Positions 35,214 through 50,145 of a stretch of 64,000 bases of DNA are shown one piece after another. The notes under the pieces are model-generated. The model made no database searches. It worked only from the letters and a program-made list of their open reading frames with translations, and was not told where the DNA came from. This DNA is from Saccharomonospora sp. CUA-673 (GTDB lineage Bacteria > Actinomycetota > Actinomycetes > Mycobacteriales > Pseudonocardiaceae). The stretch covers positions 1 to 64,000 of the forward strand of contig NZ_MKKE01000014.1 in the NCBI RefSeq assembly GCF_001942305.1. Reading direction: 5' to 3'. Position numbers and translations under genes: made by a program. Each line of letters begins with the position of its first letter. Within the stretch, counting starts at the first letter, position 1.

Positions 35214-36764
35214 ATGGTCCCGACCACGCCACCCCACCCCGTCGCCCGCGAGTACCTGCGCGTTTCGGTCGACCGGTGGGGGAACCAGCAGTCGCAAGGC
35301 GAGCAGCACGAGCACAACGCCCGAGCCGCCGACGCGCACGGCTGGACACTCGGCGAACCCTACGACGACACAGGCTCGGCGAGCCGCTACGCGCGCAAGG
35401 CGCGTACGGGGTTCGACCGTCTGCTCGCCGACCTCCGGGCCGGCCGGTTCGGCGCGCACGTGCTGATCATCTGGGAGTCGTCGCGCGGTTCCCGGCGGGT
35501 CGGCGAGTGGGTCGAGCTCGTCGAGCTGTGCGAGGACAACGGGGTGCGCATCTACGTCACCACGCACGGGCGCATCTACGACGCCGGCAACGCGCGCGAC
35601 CGGCGCTCACTCCTCGAGGACGCCGTCGACTCTGAGTACGAGTCGGGCAAGACGTCCGACCGCGTGACGCGCAACCACGCCGCACGCGCGGCGGCCGGCA
35701 AACCGGCGGGCGCAGTCCCCTACGGCTACGCCCGCGAGTACGACCCCGGAACCGGCCGGCTACTCGGCCGCGTGCCCAACCCGGCCGAGGCCGGCCTCGT
35801 GCGCGAGGCGTTCGACCGGTTCACCGCCGGCGCGTCGATACGGTCGATCGTGCGCGAGTGGACCGACCGCGGCGTGCGCAACCGCGCCGGCCGCCCGTTC
35901 ACCCCCGTGGCGCTGCGCGAGATGCTGCGGAACCGAAGCTACGTCGCCGAGCGCGTGCACATCCCCGGCCAGAACACGCGATGGTGGCTCGCCCGCGACT
36001 CGGCGCAGATCACGCCGGCCGAGTGGGAACCGATCGTCGACCGCGCCACGTTCGCGACCGCGCAAGCGGTCCTCGACGACCCGCAGCGCGTCACCCGCCG
36101 GCCCGGCGGCGCCCGTCACCTGCTGTCGATGATCGCCCGGTGCGACGTGTGCGGCGGGCCGCTGTCGGTGCGGGTGACGCGGGGCCGGCCGGCGTACCGG
36201 TGCCACACGTCGGGATGCGTGACCGTGCCGCGCGACGAGCTCGACGAGATCGCCGAACGCGTGATCGTCGCGTGGCTCGCGGCGCCCGAGGTGCACGAGG
36301 CGTTGCGCCACGACGGCGAGGTCGCCGGCGACGAGCTCGCGACGGTCGAGGCCGAGCTCGCCGAGGCACGCGCCGAGCTCGAGAACCTCGCCGCGCGGGT
36401 GTCGGCCGGCGACCTGTCGGTGTCGTTCGCGGCTCGTGTCGAACCGGGGTTGCGTGCCAGGGTCGACGAGCTCGCCGCGCGACACCGCGAGCTGTCGACC
36501 CCGCCCGTGCTGCGAAGCCTGATCGAGCCGGGCGAGGACGTCGCGCGCCGCTGGGAAGCGATCGACGACCCGGCCGCGCGCCGGCGGATCGTCGAGGTTG
36601 TGCTCAGTCCGGGGCATGTGGGCGAGCTGCGCGTCATGCGTGCAGGTGGGCGCGGTGTGCCGGTTCATGCGCGCATCACGTTCTCGCACGAAGCACCGTC
36701 AGGCCGCACCAGTGGCACGGACGCGCCGGCGCAACAGTCCGTGTCGCTTGCCCCTCCCGAATGA
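35214..36764 (+). CDS. int: Large serine integrase
   Basis: A 516-residue site-specific recombinase. The catalytic domain starts at about residue 12 with REYLRVSVDRW (Ser of the active site) and continues with the GFDRLLADLRAG and ESSRGSRR segments. A recombinase domain follows (GAVPYGYAREYD), then a zinc-ribbon (CDVCGGPLSV...CHTSGC) near residues 308-330 and a coiled-coil region (~365-450). It joined attP and attB and made the 13 bp core ends. Its start lies only 33 bp from attL, so its promoter in the circular form would extend across attP. No excisionase (RDF) is recognised by sequence; one of the small early genes is the likely candidate. Confidence 0.95.
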   Translation: MVPTTPPHPVAREYLRVSVDRWGNQQSQGEQHEHNARAADAHGWTLGEPYDDTGSASRYARKARTGFDRLLADLRAGRFGAHVLIIWESSRGSRRVGEWVELVELCEDNGVRIYVTTHGRIYDAGNARDRRSLLEDAVDSEYESGKTSDRVTRNHAARAAAGKPAGAVPYGYAREYDPGTGRLLGRVPNPAEAGLVREAFDRFTAGASIRSIVREWTDRGVRNRAGRPFTPVALREMLRNRSYVAERVHIPGQNTRWWLARDSAQITPAEWEPIVDRATFATAQAVLDDPQRVTRRPGGARHLLSMIARCDVCGGPLSVRVTRGRPAYRCHTSGCVTVPRDELDEIAERVIVAWLAAPEVHEALRHDGEVAGDELATVEAELAEARAELENLAARVSAGDLSVSFAARVEPGLRARVDELAARHRELSTPPVLRSLIEPGEDVARRWEAIDDPAARRRIVEVVLSPGHVGELRVMRAGGRGVPVHARITFSHEAPSGRTSGTDAPAQQSVSLAPPE

Positions 36765-43719: not shown

Positions 43720-44009
43720 AACACGACCTCGACGAGATCGCCGACGTCTACCGCGCCGCCGTCGAGCGAACCGAGCACCCGCGGCGCGCGGTGATGAACG
43801 CATTCGGCATGACGCGGCAGACCGCCGCCCGGTGGATACGACTTGCCCGCGAGGCCGGGAACCTGCCGCCCGAGCAGGGGAAGGCATTCGCGGCGGGCGA
43901 GCACTACCCACGACGCGCACGGTTCGGCAGCGACCGCGCTACATGGCTCGCGTGCGCCGAATGCCGCCACCCCTGGCCATGCCCCAACCGAGGAGGACGG
44001 AACCAGTGA
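43716..44009 (+). CDS. HTH/zinc phage protein (97 aa)
   Basis: MKHDLDEIADVYRAAVERTEHPRRAVMNAFGMTRQTAARWIRLARE is a helix-turn-helix (MTRQTAARWI recognition helix). A C-terminal CAECRHPWPCPNRG holds three Cys and one His, a likely zinc site. Typical of small regulators near actinophage packaging genes. Start and stop overlap both neighbours. Confidence 0.7.
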   Translation: MKHDLDEIADVYRAAVERTEHPRRAVMNAFGMTRQTAARWIRLAREAGNLPPEQGKAFAAGEHYPRRARFGSDRATWLACAECRHPWPCPNRGGRNQ

Positions 44010-44698: not shown

Positions 44699-45097
44699 AT
44701 GACACGCGAACACATGCAGGCTGCTGACCACACGTTCGCCGCGTCGGTCGCGGAAACGCTCGATTCGCTCGAGTTGCAGGCAGAAGACCGCGCAGCGGGC
44801 CGATTGGCCGAGAAGTACGCCCGGGCGCTCGACGAGGCGCGCGCGGCCGAGGTTCAGGCGGACAAGGTGCTGCGGCGCCTCGACGACGACGATCCCGACC
44901 CCGAGCTCGCCGAGTTGGTGTCGGCGTTGCGGGGCAAGCTGTCGGCGCGTACGGCGCTCGAGTCGCTGGGGCCCAAGTTGCTGTCCGTGCTCGACGCGCT
45001 CGGCGGCTCGCCGAAGGCTCGAGCGTCGGCCGGCAAGACTGCGGGGAAGGGTGGCAAGGGTGGCAAGCTCGCCGAGCTCCGCGCTGCTCGGGCGTGA
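44699..45097 (+). CDS. Terminase small subunit
   Basis: A 132-residue helical, charged protein. It starts MTREHMQAADHTFAASVAET and has a long helical middle (AAGRLAEKYARALDEARAAE) and a Gly/Lys-rich end (SAGKTAGKGGKGGKLAELR). It precedes and overlaps the large terminase, as expected for the DNA-recognition subunit that brings the genome to the packaging motor. Sequence alone is weakly diagnostic; position decides. Confidence 0.78.
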   Translation: MTREHMQAADHTFAASVAETLDSLELQAEDRAAGRLAEKYARALDEARAAEVQADKVLRRLDDDDPDPELAELVSALRGKLSARTALESLGPKLLSVLDALGGSPKARASAGKTAGKGGKGGKLAELRAARA

Positions 45098-46547
45098 GTG
45101 TCCGCGCCTGTTCACCGAGCCGGCGCGCAAGCTGACCAGGAAGACGACGCTCGGTTTCGAGGCGATCGCGTTCGCCGAGGACATGCTCGGCATGACGTTG
45201 CTCCCGTGGCAGCGTTGGTGGTTGATTCATGCGCTCGAGCTCGAGCCGGGCGGCTCGTTCCGATACCGCACCGTACTAACGCTGGTGGCGCGGCAGAACG
45301 GCAAGACGACGCTACTCAAGGCGTTGAGCCTGTATTTCATGTACATGGGGCGGGCGCGCCTGGTGCTCGGTGCGGCGCAGTCCCTCGACATCGCCCGCGA
45401 GTCGTGGTCGGGCGCGGTCGATCTGGCCGAGGGTGACGCCGAGCTCGCCGACGAGATCGACCTCGTGCGCCGAGCGAACGGCGAGCAAGAGTTGCGGCTC
45501 GTCAACGGCGCCCGGTATCGCATCGCTGCGGCCACGGGCGCCGCCGGCCGCGGCCTGTCGGTCGACCTGTTGATCCTCGACGAGCTGCGCCAACACCAGA
45601 CGTGGGCCGCGTGGGGTGCGCTGTCGAAAACGACGATGGCGCGGCCGGACGCGCTCACGGTGGGCATCTCGAACGCCGGCGACGACCAGTCGGTCGTGCT
45701 GAACGCGCTACGCGAGGCCGCGCTCGCCGGCGCCGACCCCACCATCGGCCTGTTTGAGTGGTCCGCGCCGGACGGGTGCGAGCTCGACGACCGCGACGCG
45801 TGGGCGCAGGCCAACCCCGGACTTGGGCACACGATCACCGAGCAGGCGATCGCCACGGCGCAGGCCACCGACCCGCCGGCGGTGTTCCGAACCGAGGTGC
45901 TGTGCCAGCGGGTCGACGTGCTCGACTCGGCGGTCGACCCGGGCGGGTGGAGCACGGGCGCGGACCCGGGCGGGTCCCTCGAGGGTGCGCGCGACCGGGT
46001 CGCCGTCGGGCTCGACGTCGCACCGGACGGGGCGCACGTGGCGCTACTGGCGGCGGCGGACGCCGGCGACGGGCGGGTGCGTGTCGAGCCGGTCGCCGCG
46101 TGGGACTCGACGGACGCCGCGCGCGACGAGCTCGACGAGCTGCTCGACCGGATCGCCCCGCGGGCGCTCGCGTGGTTCCCGTCGGGGCCGGCGGCCGCGC
46201 TCGGCGCGGTGATCCGTCGTGACCGTCTTGCGCCGGCCGGCGGGAACCGGAAGGGCCGGCGGCCGGGCCGTCCGTTCGAGCTCGTCGAGTTGACGGGGCA
46301 GAAGGTCGCCGAGACGTGTCAGTCGTTCGCTGATTTGGTCGCTGCGGGCCGCGTGTTGCATCCGGCGGACCCGATGCTCGACGCGCACGTGATGAACGCG
46401 CAGCGGCTCGACCAGGGCGACGGGTGGCGGTTCGCTCGTCGCGGGGCGGGGCACGTGTCGGCGGTGTACGCGGCGGCCGGCGCGGTTCAGGCGGCGTTGA
46501 CGTTGCCTCGTCCGGCGGGGCGGCCGCGGGTGATCGTCGCTCGGTAG
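45051..46547 (+). CDS. Terminase large subunit
   Basis: A 498-residue packaging ATPase/nuclease. The ATPase part has LLPWQRWWLIHAL, the Walker-like VLTLVARQNGKTTLLKAL and the Walker B/catalytic block VDLLILDELRQHQ. The nuclease half carries VAVGLDVAPDGAHVAL with the first metal Asp and later MLDAHVMNA. It starts upstream of the small terminase stop (GTG 45051, 47 bp overlap; GTG 45060 also possible). The frame is complete. Confidence 0.93.
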   Translation: MARVASSPSSALLGRECPRLFTEPARKLTRKTTLGFEAIAFAEDMLGMTLLPWQRWWLIHALELEPGGSFRYRTVLTLVARQNGKTTLLKALSLYFMYMGRARLVLGAAQSLDIARESWSGAVDLAEGDAELADEIDLVRRANGEQELRLVNGARYRIAAATGAAGRGLSVDLLILDELRQHQTWAAWGALSKTTMARPDALTVGISNAGDDQSVVLNALREAALAGADPTIGLFEWSAPDGCELDDRDAWAQANPGLGHTITEQAIATAQATDPPAVFRTEVLCQRVDVLDSAVDPGGWSTGADPGGSLEGARDRVAVGLDVAPDGAHVALLAAADAGDGRVRVEPVAAWDSTDAARDELDELLDRIAPRALAWFPSGPAAALGAVIRRDRLAPAGGNRKGRRPGRPFELVELTGQKVAETCQSFADLVAAGRVLHPADPMLDAHVMNAQRLDQGDGWRFARRGAGHVSAVYAAAGAVQAALTLPRPAGRPRVIVAR

Positions 46548-46574
46548 CGCCACGCCGGCGGCCACAGTGGACGC

Positions 46575-46590
46575 CGGTATTTCTATACCG
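46575..46590. promoter_or_regulatory. Inverted repeat upstream of the head polyprotein gene
   Basis: CGGTAT-TTCT-ATACCG, perfect 6 bp arms, in an AT-rich 57 bp gap between terminase and head genes. Its 13 bp ccggtatttctat also occurs at 3327-3339 upstream of map, next to the palindrome ATACCGGTAT. Candidate late promoter element or regulator site. Confidence 0.45.
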
Positions 46591-46604
46591 TTATAGTTAT
46601 CGGT

Positions 46605-49589
46605 GTGGGATTCGTGCGGACGGTGCTGAGGTGGGCCGGCGTGCCAGACACGCCGGCCCCCGAGCCGCACGTGTCGTTCTCGTGGGACCTGCACACGTCC
46701 CCCATCGACGATCTGATCACCCGCGAGGGCCGCGAACTGTCCAATGTGCCGGTGGCGCGTGACCGGGCGCTCACGGTGCCCGCGGTGCTGCGCGGGCGGA
46801 ACATGATCTGCTCTATCGCCACGCTGCCGTTGGTGACGAAGGCATCCGACCGCACCGAGACGCGTACGCCGTTGCTCGAGCAGATCGACGACGCCGTGCC
46901 CAACATCGTCACGATGTCGCAGACGGTCGAGGACTTGCTCCTCGAGGGTGTCGCGTGGTGGCGGGTGCGGTCGCGGCTGGCGGATGGGTTCCCGCGGTCG
47001 GCCGAGTTCGTCAACGCGCACCGGGTGTCGGTCAACCCGCCCGCCGGCGCGCCGCCGCGGCGCCTGCCGTCGGGTCTGTACCCCGGCGAGTCGGTGCTGT
47101 GGGTCGACGGCGAGCCGGTGCGCGGTCGGGACATGATCCGGTTCGACTCGCCCAACCCCGGAATTCTGACGGCGGCCGCGCGTGCGATTCGTCGGGCGAT
47201 CGTGTTCGAGCGTGCGTCGGCGATGTACGCGCGGAACCCGCGGCCTGTCGAGTACTTCACCCCGTTGGAGGGTGCCGACCCGACGACCGACGAGGAGATC
47301 GAGGAGATTCTCACGGCGTGGGGCGAGGCTCGCCGCGCGGGCTCGACCGCGTACGTGCCGGCGTCGCTCAAGTACAACACCGTGGACATGCCGTCGCCGG
47401 CCGAGTTGCAGCTCGTCGAAATGCAGAAACAGGCGACGGTTGAGATCGCTAACGTGATGGGCCTCGACTCCGAGGATTTGCAGGTGTCGACGACGTCGCG
47501 CACCTATCAGTCCGCTGTGGACCGTCGGCGCGACCGGATCAACGACGTGCTGTCGCCGTTCATGAGCGCGATCACCGACCGCCTGTCGATGAACGACGTC
47601 ACTCGCAGGGGGCAGCGTGTCGCGTTCAAGTTGGACGACTACATGCGCGCCGACCCCACTACGCGGTGGGGCACATACCAGACCGGACTACAGAACGGCG
47701 TCGTGTCGGTCGCCGAGGTGCGCGCGATGGAAGGTTTGCCCGACATCCCGGTCGAGCCGCGGCCCGTGGCGCCCGTGCGGCGGCCGGGCGTTCGCCGCCA
47801 AGTGGAGGAACCACGCATGTCACACACGAGCGGCGCGCAGTTCGCCGACGACACCGACGACGGGCTCGAGCGCATCGCGTTCGACGGTCCGCCGGTCGAC
47901 GCCGAGTTCCGCGTCGACCGTGAGCGGCGCACCGTCGAGGGTCTGCTCGTGCCGTGGGGCAAGGTCGCCCGGTCCGCCGGCGCGGCCTACACGTTCGCCC
48001 GCGGTTCGCTGTCGTGGTCGGAGGTGTCGCGGGTGAAGCTCAACCGCGAACACGCCCGGTTCGACGTGGTCGGCGTGGCGCGGCGCCTCGAGGTCACCGA
48101 CGAGGGCCTCGTCGGCACCTTCAAGATCGCCCGCGGTGAGGACGGCGACCGCGTGTTGTCGCTCGCCGAGGACGGAATCCTCGACGGTTTCTCGATCGAG
48201 GCCGAGTTCGACGAGGGCGGGGTCGAGTGGTCCCGCACCGGTGACGACGGTGGGGTTCGGCGCGTGTCGCGTGCTCGGCTCGCCGGCGTCGCGATCACCA
48301 GTAGCCCAGCATTCGACGACGCCCGCGTGTCGGGTGTCGCAGCGTCCAGAAAGGACACACACGTGTATAAGCCCGACGAGGGTCAGAACGAGGCGCCGGC
48401 CCCCGGGCCGGACGCTGCCGCATTCACGAGCGCAGTCGAGGCCATGGCCGGCGCGGTCGAGCGTCTCGGCCAGGTTCAGGCCGAGCTGCCGCAGAAGATC
48501 GCCGACGAGGTCGCCAACACGGCGGGGCCGGCGTTCGTCGACCCGGCCGGCCGCGAGCAGCAGAAGTTCAGCGTGAACGAAGAGCCGTTGTACCGGTTCG
48601 ACGGTATCGGCGGCCAGCACGATTTCAGTTCGGACATGATCGCCGGCGCCAAGGGTGACGACGAGGCGCGCGCCCGCGTCGAGGAGTGGATCGGCGCGAA
48701 CTTCTCGGTTGAGACTGGCGACGTCGAGTCGCTGAACCCGGCGCGGCAGCGGCCCGACATGTACGTCGACCAGCTCGATTACGTCACGCCGATTTGGGAC
48801 TCGATCAACAAGGGCTCGATCAGCGACAACACGCCGTTCGTGCTGCCGAAGTTCGAGAGTTCGGCGAACCTGGTCAACGAGCACACCGAGGGCACCGAGC
48901 CCGACTCGGGCACGTTCACGACGACGTCGCAGACGATCACGCCGCAGGCGGTGTCCGGCAAGGTTGAGATCACCCGGGAGACGTGGGACCAGGGCGGTAA
49001 CCCGCAGCTCTCGTCCATCCTGTGGCGGCAGATCGTGCGCGCCTACCGTGAGGGCCTCGAGAATTCGGCGGCGTCGATGCTGGCCGACCTGTCGGTCGCG
49101 ACGATCGCCCTCACCGGGTCCGACGTCGAGCTCACCGACGAACTGAAGCAGGCGCTCGCCGCGCTCCAGTTCGTCCGCGGCGGTAACCGGTTCCGTGACT
49201 TCAAGTTGCACGGCGAGCTCTACAACGCGCTTGCGGGCGCGAAGGACGGCAACGGCCGGCCCATGTTCCCCGTGCTGTCGCCGTCGAACGCCGACGGCAC
49301 CGCGGATGCGTTCTTCGGGTCGATCGCCGTCGGTGGCCTCGCCGGCGTGCCCGCGTGGGCGCTCAACGACGCCGGCGGCGGTTCCTCGTTCCTGTACAAC
49401 CGCGAGGACGTGCACGGCTGGGCAAGCGCGCCCAACCGGTTGGAGTTCCAGTACCGCGTCGCGTACGTCGACGTTGGGGTGTGGGGCTACAAGGCGGTTG
49501 CGTGCACCCGTGAGGACGGCGTCCGCGAGATCACCTACGCGCCGAGCGACAACGGCGGCGACAACGGCGGCGACGGCGGCGGGGCCTGA
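46605..49589 (+). CDS. Portal - prohead protease - major capsid protein in one 994-codon frame
   Basis: HK97-type head morphogenesis in a single frame. Residues 1-404: portal (AVLRGRNMICSIATLPL, LQLVEMQKQATVEIANVMGL, QVSTTSRTYQSAVDRRRD). Residues 405-586: S78-type maturation protease (RTVEGLLVPWGKV, catalytic His in LNREHARFD, Ser in LDGFSIEAEF). Residues 587-994: capsid with an N-terminal helical scaffold part (about 600-640) and the HK97 fold (QLDYVTPIWDSINKGSI to VACTREDGVREITYAPS), ending in a Gly/Asp/Asn tail. There is no stop at either boundary, yet each is preceded by a ribosome site: GGAGG 8 bp before ATG 47817 and AGAAAGGA 7 bp before GTG 48363. Either a triple polyprotein or a nested set of starts. 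Confidence 0.9.
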   Translation: MGFVRTVLRWAGVPDTPAPEPHVSFSWDLHTSPIDDLITREGRELSNVPVARDRALTVPAVLRGRNMICSIATLPLVTKASDRTETRTPLLEQIDDAVPNIVTMSQTVEDLLLEGVAWWRVRSRLADGFPRSAEFVNAHRVSVNPPAGAPPRRLPSGLYPGESVLWVDGEPVRGRDMIRFDSPNPGILTAAARAIRRAIVFERASAMYARNPRPVEYFTPLEGADPTTDEEIEEILTAWGEARRAGSTAYVPASLKYNTVDMPSPAELQLVEMQKQATVEIANVMGLDSEDLQVSTTSRTYQSAVDRRRDRINDVLSPFMSAITDRLSMNDVTRRGQRVAFKLDDYMRADPTTRWGTYQTGLQNGVVSVAEVRAMEGLPDIPVEPRPVAPVRRPGVRRQVEEPRMSHTSGAQFADDTDDGLERIAFDGPPVDAEFRVDRERRTVEGLLVPWGKVARSAGAAYTFARGSLSWSEVSRVKLNREHARFDVVGVARRLEVTDEGLVGTFKIARGEDGDRVLSLAEDGILDGFSIEAEFDEGGVEWSRTGDDGGVRRVSRARLAGVAITSSPAFDDARVSGVAASRKDTHVYKPDEGQNEAPAPGPDAAAFTSAVEAMAGAVERLGQVQAELPQKIADEVANTAGPAFVDPAGREQQKFSVNEEPLYRFDGIGGQHDFSSDMIAGAKGDDEARARVEEWIGANFSVETGDVESLNPARQRPDMYVDQLDYVTPIWDSINKGSISDNTPFVLPKFESSANLVNEHTEGTEPDSGTFTTTSQTITPQAVSGKVEITRETWDQGGNPQLSSILWRQIVRAYREGLENSAASMLADLSVATIALTGSDVELTDELKQALAALQFVRGGNRFRDFKLHGELYNALAGAKDGNGRPMFPVLSPSNADGTADAFFGSIAVGGLAGVPAWALNDAGGGSSFLYNREDVHGWASAPNRLEFQYRVAYVDVGVWGYKAVACTREDGVREITYAPSDNGGDNGGDGGGA

Positions 49590-49591
49590 TC

Positions 49592-49789
49592 ATGGCGACG
49601 CGGAAGAGGTCACGGCCGGCCACCGCGCCGGCCGTGACCCCTGACGACGAGCCGGTCGTCGACGAGGCGCCGGCCACCGAGCCGGCCGAGCCGGCGCCGG
49701 CCGCGCGGCCGCGCCGGCGGCGTCCGGTGTGGATGATCCCCACGCCCGACGGGCTCGTCCCGGAACACGAGCTGCGACGGGGGCGGTGA
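49592..49789 (+). CDS. Small Pro/Ala-rich head protein (65 aa)
   Basis: Begins two bases after the capsid stop. MATRKRSRPATAPAVTPDDE then a Glu/Pro/Ala linker and a basic RPRRRRPVWMIPTPDGLVPE. Disordered and basic; small proteins like this follow capsid genes in actinophages. Its role (head decoration or stabiliser) is not known. Confidence 0.6.
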   Translation: MATRKRSRPATAPAVTPDDEPVVDEAPATEPAEPAPAARPRRRRPVWMIPTPDGLVPEHELRRGR

Positions 49790-49791
49790 CC

Positions 49792-50145
49792 ATGCCCGGG
49801 TGGCTCACGCTCGCCGACCTGAAAGCCGAGATGGACATCGACGAGTCGGACACGCGCGACGACGAGCGCCTCGAGACTGCCCTCGAGGCAGCCGAGGTGT
49901 TCGTCGAGCGTGTGCGGCGCGGTGACTTCAACTTCGACCAGGACCCGGCGTCCGATCTGCCCGCACCGACCGCTGACGTGCGTCTCGGAACGCTCATGCT
50001 CGCCCGCCGGTGGAACACCCGCCGGCGCTCGCCCGACGGCATGGTGTCCATGTCCGAACAGGGCACGGCAACGGTCGTGGCCAACGACCCCGACATCGCC
50101 CGTCTGTTGCGGATCGGGCGGCACGCACGGGCGCGCGTCGGATGA
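49792..50145 (+). CDS. Head-tail connector (gp6-like)
   Basis: A 117-residue protein of the HK97 gp6/SPP1 gp15 type: MPGWLTLADLKAEMDIDESD, helices with ALEAAEVFVERVRRGDF, then RLGTLMLARRWNTRRRSPDG. It forms the ring under the portal that joins the tail. ATG 49792 starts the conserved part; the stop overlaps the next ATG. Confidence 0.78.
   Translation: MPGWLTLADLKAEMDIDESDTRDDERLETALEAAEVFVERVRRGDFNFDQDPASDLPAPTADVRLGTLMLARRWNTRRRSPDGMVSMSEQGTATVVANDPDIARLLRIGRHARARVG

Follow-up and report, generated by a model that had tools for sequence, protein, structure and literature searches.

A portal-protease-scaffold-capsid gene in one open frame and the putative start sites of its products in a temperate siphophage family

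The portal, protease and capsid proteins of phage heads are normally encoded by separate genes and are required in very different numbers. In a 64,000-nucleotide stretch of the genome of Saccharomonospora sp. CUA-673 (contig NZ_MKKE01000014.1, positions 1 to 64,000; hereafter the window), the three appear in one open frame of 994 codons, which raises the question of whether the fusion is real and how a single gene could supply its parts in unequal amounts. The first-pass annotation had proposed that the frame holds HK97-type portal, protease and capsid proteins, and this was confirmed both by the frame, the translation of which contains no internal stop, and by Pfam (coordinates of all features are given in Table 1). 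Phage_portal (PF04860) matched residues 70-377 (E 2.3e-26, above the cut-off), Peptidase_S78 (PF04586) residues 442-581 (E 1.7e-6, 28.7 bits against a cut-off of 21) and Phage_capsid_4 (PF25209) residues 729-965 (E 1.2e-9). The NCBIfam models TIGR01537 (portal), TIGR01543 (protease) and TIGR01554 (capsid) all matched below their curated cut-offs, and the match to phrog_2263 covered residues 434-979 of the 994-residue product. The gene lies in a prophage context with terminase, head-tail connector, major tail protein and tape measure. The ORF at 35214-36764, judged by eye, resembles a large serine integrase and probably forms the prophage's left part. No Rfam family reached its gathering score between positions 44000 and 52000.

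Table 1. Features of the fused locus (window coordinates) and, in the last rows, cultured fusion genes with a nested site (coordinates in the record named)
Feature	Position	Strand	Remarks
Terminase large subunit, upstream neighbour	45051..46547	+	phrog_9, E 1.7e-78
Promoter-like TGGACG-18-TATAGT	46568..46597 (-10 at 46592-46597)	+	-10 ends 7 nt before GTG
Palindrome CGGTATTTCTATACCG, operator-like	46575..46590	.	between -35 and -10
Portal-protease-scaffold-capsid gene	46605..49589	+	single open frame, 994 codons, GTG start
Portal region, residues 1-390	46605..47774	+	Pfam PF04860; Foldseek 3kdr, 8fql; SD energy +1.0; GTG start, probably leaderless
Linker 1, residues 391-432	47775..47900	+	predicted disordered (pLDDT <50); presumed cleavage region
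Boundary-1 SD GGAGG and in-frame ATG 47817	47804..47819 (SD 47804-47808)	+	minority of wider family
Prohead protease, residues 433-572	47901..48320	+	Pfam PF04586
Candidate catalytic His483 and Ser530	48051-48053, 48192-48194	+	alignment of 74 rows
Linker 2, residues 573-605	48321..48419	+	predicted disordered (AlphaFold2)
Boundary-2 SD AAAGGA and in-frame GTG 48363	48350..48365 (SD 48350-48355)	+	SD and start here in 92/95 representatives
Scaffold (delta-domain-like) helix, residues 607-638	48423..48518	+	AlphaFold2; role by analogy
HK97-fold major capsid, residues 655-994	48567..49589	+	Pfam PF25209; Foldseek 1ohg, 2fs3
Cultured fusion gene, L016	3704-5287		nested site
Cultured fusion gene, L103	3242-4870		nested site
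Cultured fusion gene, L104	2941-4527		nested site
Cultured fusion gene, L105	3490-5055		nested site
Cultured fusion gene, L106	2593-4644		nested site
Cultured fusion gene, L107	2435-4051		nested site
Cultured fusion gene, L108	2456-4036		nested site
Cultured fusion gene, L109	2396-3982		nested site

The AlphaFold2 model built on 74 aligned rows (mean pLDDT 76.9, pTM 0.45) predicts the portal, protease and capsid with confidence, together with a scaffold helix. Its low-confidence stretches (pLDDT below 50) include residues 391-432 and 573-605, which are the two boundaries; a model from 11 rows, with a mean pLDDT of 41.4, was left unused. Foldseek related the portal to 3kdr (E 9.9e-19) and the capsid to 1ohg (E 3.3e-10), and among the 50 matches listed, HK97-family portals and HK97 capsids were present and the protease fold was absent. 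Ser530 is kept in all 74 rows and His483 in 70, the other four not conserving it. We take these two residues to be candidates for the catalytic residues of an S78 prohead protease. The linkers showed no conserved cleavage motif.

The dN/dS ratios were below 1 for the portal, the protease and the capsid in all seven pairs compared. The linkers often, though not always, gave higher values than the domains, and one linker-scaffold value was 1.5. The ratios of the three domains speak against a functionless fusion in a prophage locus that has decayed or been domesticated, and so do the adjoining terminase, connector and tail genes and the wide spread of the gene in viral contigs. We regard such a locus as highly improbable, even if its position in a bacterial genome, and cultured phage records that show no triple match at the sensitivity used, would be in keeping with it.

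The first-pass annotation had kept open an artefact at the second boundary, where a TAA at 48368-48370 lies in another frame; for the first boundary it had pointed out that neither of the other frames meets a stop for more than 100 bp, which is indeed seen in the sequence. A sequencing or assembly error that joined separate genes is excluded by the recurrence of the same uninterrupted frame in other contigs and genomes, and we give this explanation practically no weight. The matches listed in three scans come from 103 viral contigs with distinct names; 101 of these have the three domains in one stop-free frame, and the remaining two (L011 and L088) begin at the contig edge. The first scans recovered the uninterrupted frame both from viral contigs and from Amycolatopsis deserti (L012), with best-segment identities as low as 43 %, and over all relatives it persists down to about 40-43 % identity. 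In the profile scan, 79 of the best 80 of 206 relatives were fused, L088 with its contig edge being the exception; the best 80 of 214 relatives in a scan that started from a distant member included 21 new contigs, all fused (21/21).

The gene was also found in 14 of 390 genomes of the host's family, the host's own included, several of them assembled in one or two contigs (G755, G562, G626, G590 and G600). Other proteins with all three domains, which the first-pass annotation had suggested searching for, exist in viral contigs and bacterial genomes alike. In this family scan, which scored at most two candidate places per genome, 52 of the 390 genomes had any match, mostly weak matches of ordinary portals or proteases. 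Sixteen matched the protease-capsid part at E <1e-90: the 14 fused ones, one in which the gene is broken across contigs (G689) and one in which it is split (G684). The portal-protease-capsid triple was present in a genome from another family of the host's class as well (G985), and a phylum-wide search with an 11-row profile in 396 genomes returned the window's own copy and weak partial matches in four others. As the collections of viral contigs and genomes overlap, these counts are not additive. An identical gene (100 %) sits on the 24,134-base IMG/VR contig L002, which is probably the same genome as the window. The Streptomyces acidicola contig L013 (title coverage 1.43) looks near-identical to the Amycolatopsis contig L012 and may be a contamination. 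In one metagenome contig (L003 near 7838, L019 near 6838) the reading frame of the capsid is interrupted close to the 3′ end, either by error or by a real frameshift.

Across the 95 fused representatives, the 12,408 linker codons contain no in-frame stop (0/3953 in linker 1 and 0/8455 in linker 2), compared with 72 and 84 stops in the other two frames of the first linker and 158 and 79 in those of the second, and this over 36 and 48 distinct linker lengths. The absence of stops is partly a matter of choice because the representatives counted are the fused ones; the unselected figure is that of the 103 contigs. We searched 50,697 phage records by tblastn (E 1e-5) and obtained no match over at least 80 % of P0001, L096 or L060, a search that a very divergent triple could escape. 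In the nearest phage records the portal is separate and is accompanied by the known protease-scaffold-capsid fusion. The matches to 'Pseudomonas phage Hadban' (H44 and H45) fall at the coordinates of Arthrobacter phage Adaia, and its host label may be wrong.

Within the frame, the ribosome sites claimed earlier, GGAGG with ATG 47817 at boundary 1 and AAAGGA with GTG 48363 at boundary 2, are both present. At boundary 2, 92 of the 95 non-redundant members retain a Shine-Dalgarno (SD) sequence with a start (cut-off -5.5, with TTG counted as a start codon), and the start sits 3-11 codons past the protease end. Relative to the codons, the SD core falls in each of the three phases (60, 25 and 7 of the 92) and the six residues preceding the start make up 88 different strings in 92 members; since phases and peptides vary, the conserved item is the DNA signal and not the peptide. 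We compared SD energies in 81 rows, some of them near-identical, with in-frame control windows, taking the best in-frame ATG or GTG up to 30 codons after the protease. Energies of -8 kcal/mol or lower were found in 46/81 rows against 35/2056 control windows, and energies of -5.5 or lower in 77/81 against 316/2056, the latter being a lax cut-off in view of the number of control windows that reach it. An earlier control with the other reading frames (at -6 or lower, 69 in frame versus 13 and 25 out of frame, n=81) was replaced by the in-frame windows because the frequency of start codons differs by frame. The window's own SD is modest (-5.6, with 5 of 26 control windows equal or better), and its site is supported by its conserved position in relatives and is unexceptional by energy alone. 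A nested scaffold-capsid product from internal initiation is likely on this evidence. It is very unlikely that the SD-like sites, which are located between domains, serve as elongation pauses for domain-wise folding and have no role as starts: a pause needs no start codon, yet one lies in frame and at start spacing shortly after the protease.

Regarding boundary 1, the site was kept in 9 of the 11 rows of the first relatives (absent in L007 and L008). In the larger set an SD of -8 kcal/mol or lower was found in 16/81 rows, which is still above the control rate, and the number rose to 28/81 when the whole linker and TTG were allowed. The other-frame control gave 32 in frame versus 5 and 0 out of frame (at -6 or lower, n=81). 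We dropped boundary 1 as a general internal start, given 16 rows here against 46 at boundary 2. The boundary-1 site noted in the first-pass annotation is present in the window but is not general in the family.

The start of the portal looks different. The promoter-like sequence is the sole match in 46300-50000 (shuffles gave a mean of 0.0) and, from the distance of its -10 to the GTG, transcription should begin at or next to the start codon. A TANNNT hexamer about 10-12 nt upstream together with a missing SD has been described as a mark of leaderless actinobacterial genes (PMC3160421, PMC3898074). The window displays this pattern, with the first T of TATAGT 13 nt upstream of the GTG and an SD energy of +1.0. 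The portal start could be recognised by a Gly-hydrophobic motif in 58 of the 95 representatives, the remaining 37 being unscored. TANNNT lies 4-10 nt ahead of it in 49 of these 58 (the other nine have no hexamer), as compared with 8/1970 internal ATG or GTG codons and 1/58 at a position 14 nt further upstream, and an SD of -6 or lower precedes it in 1/58. We propose a leaderless start because the portal start usually has no SD but a close -10 hexamer, and translation of the full-length product is probably leaderless. Palindromes with arms of at least 6, like the operator-like one in the window, were found in 18/58 upstream regions of the relatives, where base shuffles predict 3.5. They differ in sequence among relatives, as if bound by a putative lineage-specific regulator.

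Taken together, we think that a family of temperate siphophages probably uses this fusion as a functional head gene, from which a leaderless polyprotein and an internally initiated scaffold-capsid protein would be made and then separated by the built-in protease. The promoter adjoining the portal start codon would place the 5′ end of the mRNA at or near that codon. Ribosomes starting there without an SD would produce small amounts of the full-length portal-protease-scaffold-capsid chain, and those starting at the SD-led codon just past the protease domain would produce an excess of scaffold-capsid; a third start in the subclade of the window may add protease-scaffold-capsid. Products with a common C-terminus could co-assemble, and the portal and protease would thereby enter the prohead in proportions that the start sites determine. 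The S78-type protease would then cut the disordered linkers and remove the scaffold, giving free portal and mature capsid. Since fused members have no stop between the portal and the rest, free portal requires proteolysis, and since the scaffold-capsid start is kept, excess capsid likely comes from internal initiation. The first-pass annotation had offered a polyprotein or a nested set of products; each has support, the former from the missing stops and the latter from the conserved start, and they are better read together than as alternatives.

Were all head proteins instead cut from full-length chains, the internal SD-starts would be relics of separate genes. This agrees with the lack of a stop at either boundary in fused members, and boundary-1 sites are missing in most members, as expected of decaying relics, but the boundary-2 site is kept despite its varied peptides and phases. 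Moreover, HK97-type heads contain 12 portal subunits and hundreds of capsid subunits, a stoichiometry that equimolar portal and capsid would misfit, and we consider it unlikely that the full-length chain is the only product. The combined reading, a leaderless polyprotein with an internal start, could be taken further by analogy. We tentatively suggest, as a quite possible elaboration, a counterpart of Gag/Gag-Pol by dual initiation, in which the portal and protease, borne by the leaderless polyprotein at the N-terminus of capsid subunits, would be carried into the prohead, the internal start would supply excess capsid, and the portal would first nucleate assembly and be freed, by cleavage, only thereafter.

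This phage family of soil bacteria is widespread and joins all three proteins while retaining a start for extra capsid, which makes it testable how their ratio is set and how portal and protease enter each prohead. The fused arrangement could explain the unequal amounts of head parts. If the Gag/Gag-Pol-like reading is true, both the ratio and the incorporation of the portal would be built into one gene. If leaderless and SD-led starts do share one message, the locus would offer a natural system to compare the two modes of initiation.

As for the origin of the portal fusion, portal and protease-capsid are encoded in the G684 prophage (L183 1233-4002) by two genes that overlap in different frames. 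Its portal stop lies just beyond the protease ATG; with this ATG as the start, the overlap would be 8 bases. An overlap of 4 bases between the same two genes is found in the cultured phages Maggie, Kels, Hulk, Penoan, Sputnik, phiExGM16 and PaoPu. A quick tree built from 166 rows thinned to 102 representatives (95 fused and 7 split) groups the fused rows with G684, to the exclusion of the cultured phages (SH-aLRT 99), and the fewest changes between fused and split states are two. The portal fusion may have a single origin; G684 is on a long branch, and its split state may be ancestral or the result of a second split.

Among known systems, lambda has Nu3 nested in C, and to our knowledge neither lambda nor HK97 has portal, protease and capsid all in one frame. 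The lambda scaffold-protease and the HK97 capsid-scaffold are described as head functions combined in one gene (PMC5513430). In herpesviruses, UL26 and UL26.5 give nested in-frame products, protease-scaffold and scaffold alone, with a common C-terminus (PMC2949831). UL26.5 has its own promoter inside UL26, and capsid and portal are outside the frame, so the analogy is one of logic only. Portal-MuF fusions, known from actinophage clusters AK, EB and some EA (PMC5513430, PMC7302621), likewise join the portal to a neighbouring head protein, the partner being MuF and not protease and capsid as here. In the literature searched, outside which most subscription papers lie, we found no portal-protease-capsid fusion.

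The closest counterpart is the protease-scaffold-capsid fusion, an apparent common trait of siphoviruses with uncommonly small genomes (PMC7302621) that has also been described in Arthrobacter phages (PMC5513430); in Rhodococcus cluster CF, capsid and protease form a single gene (PMC13313380). The passages of these three papers that treat the fusion make no mention of the portal as part of it. We examined ten cultured fusions, from Arthrobacter phages Maggie, Kels and Sputnik, Microbacterium phages Hulk and PaoPu, Gordonia phages Emperor, Coeur and SallySpecial, Curtobacterium phage Penoan and Exiguobacterium phage phiExGM16. They resemble the gene of the window in their gene order and in that protease and capsid share a frame, and they differ in that the portal is a gene of its own, overlapping in the seven phages listed above and separated by lysin genes in three. 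Their capsid half barely matches the capsid profile of the fused family (best E 0.0012), and the leaderless pattern is seen at the portal start in 3/10. An in-frame SD-like site with an ATG follows the protease by 3-12 codons in 8/10 of them, phages that are not independent (three Paopuvirus, two Decurrovirus) and whose SD energies, mostly only about -5.8, were taken without control windows; Emperor has no such site, and that of SallySpecial comes only 20 codons on. Of six further prophage loci whose portal is a gene of its own, two have the site 11-14 codons after the protease, two at about 20 codons and two not at all. Given the nested start in eight of the ten, some genes annotated as 'capsid and protease fusion' may encode two proteins. 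The gene of the window likewise holds protease, scaffold and capsid in one frame and has no separate portal gene: the protease-scaffold-capsid fusion is already known, and the portal in the same frame is the feature added here.
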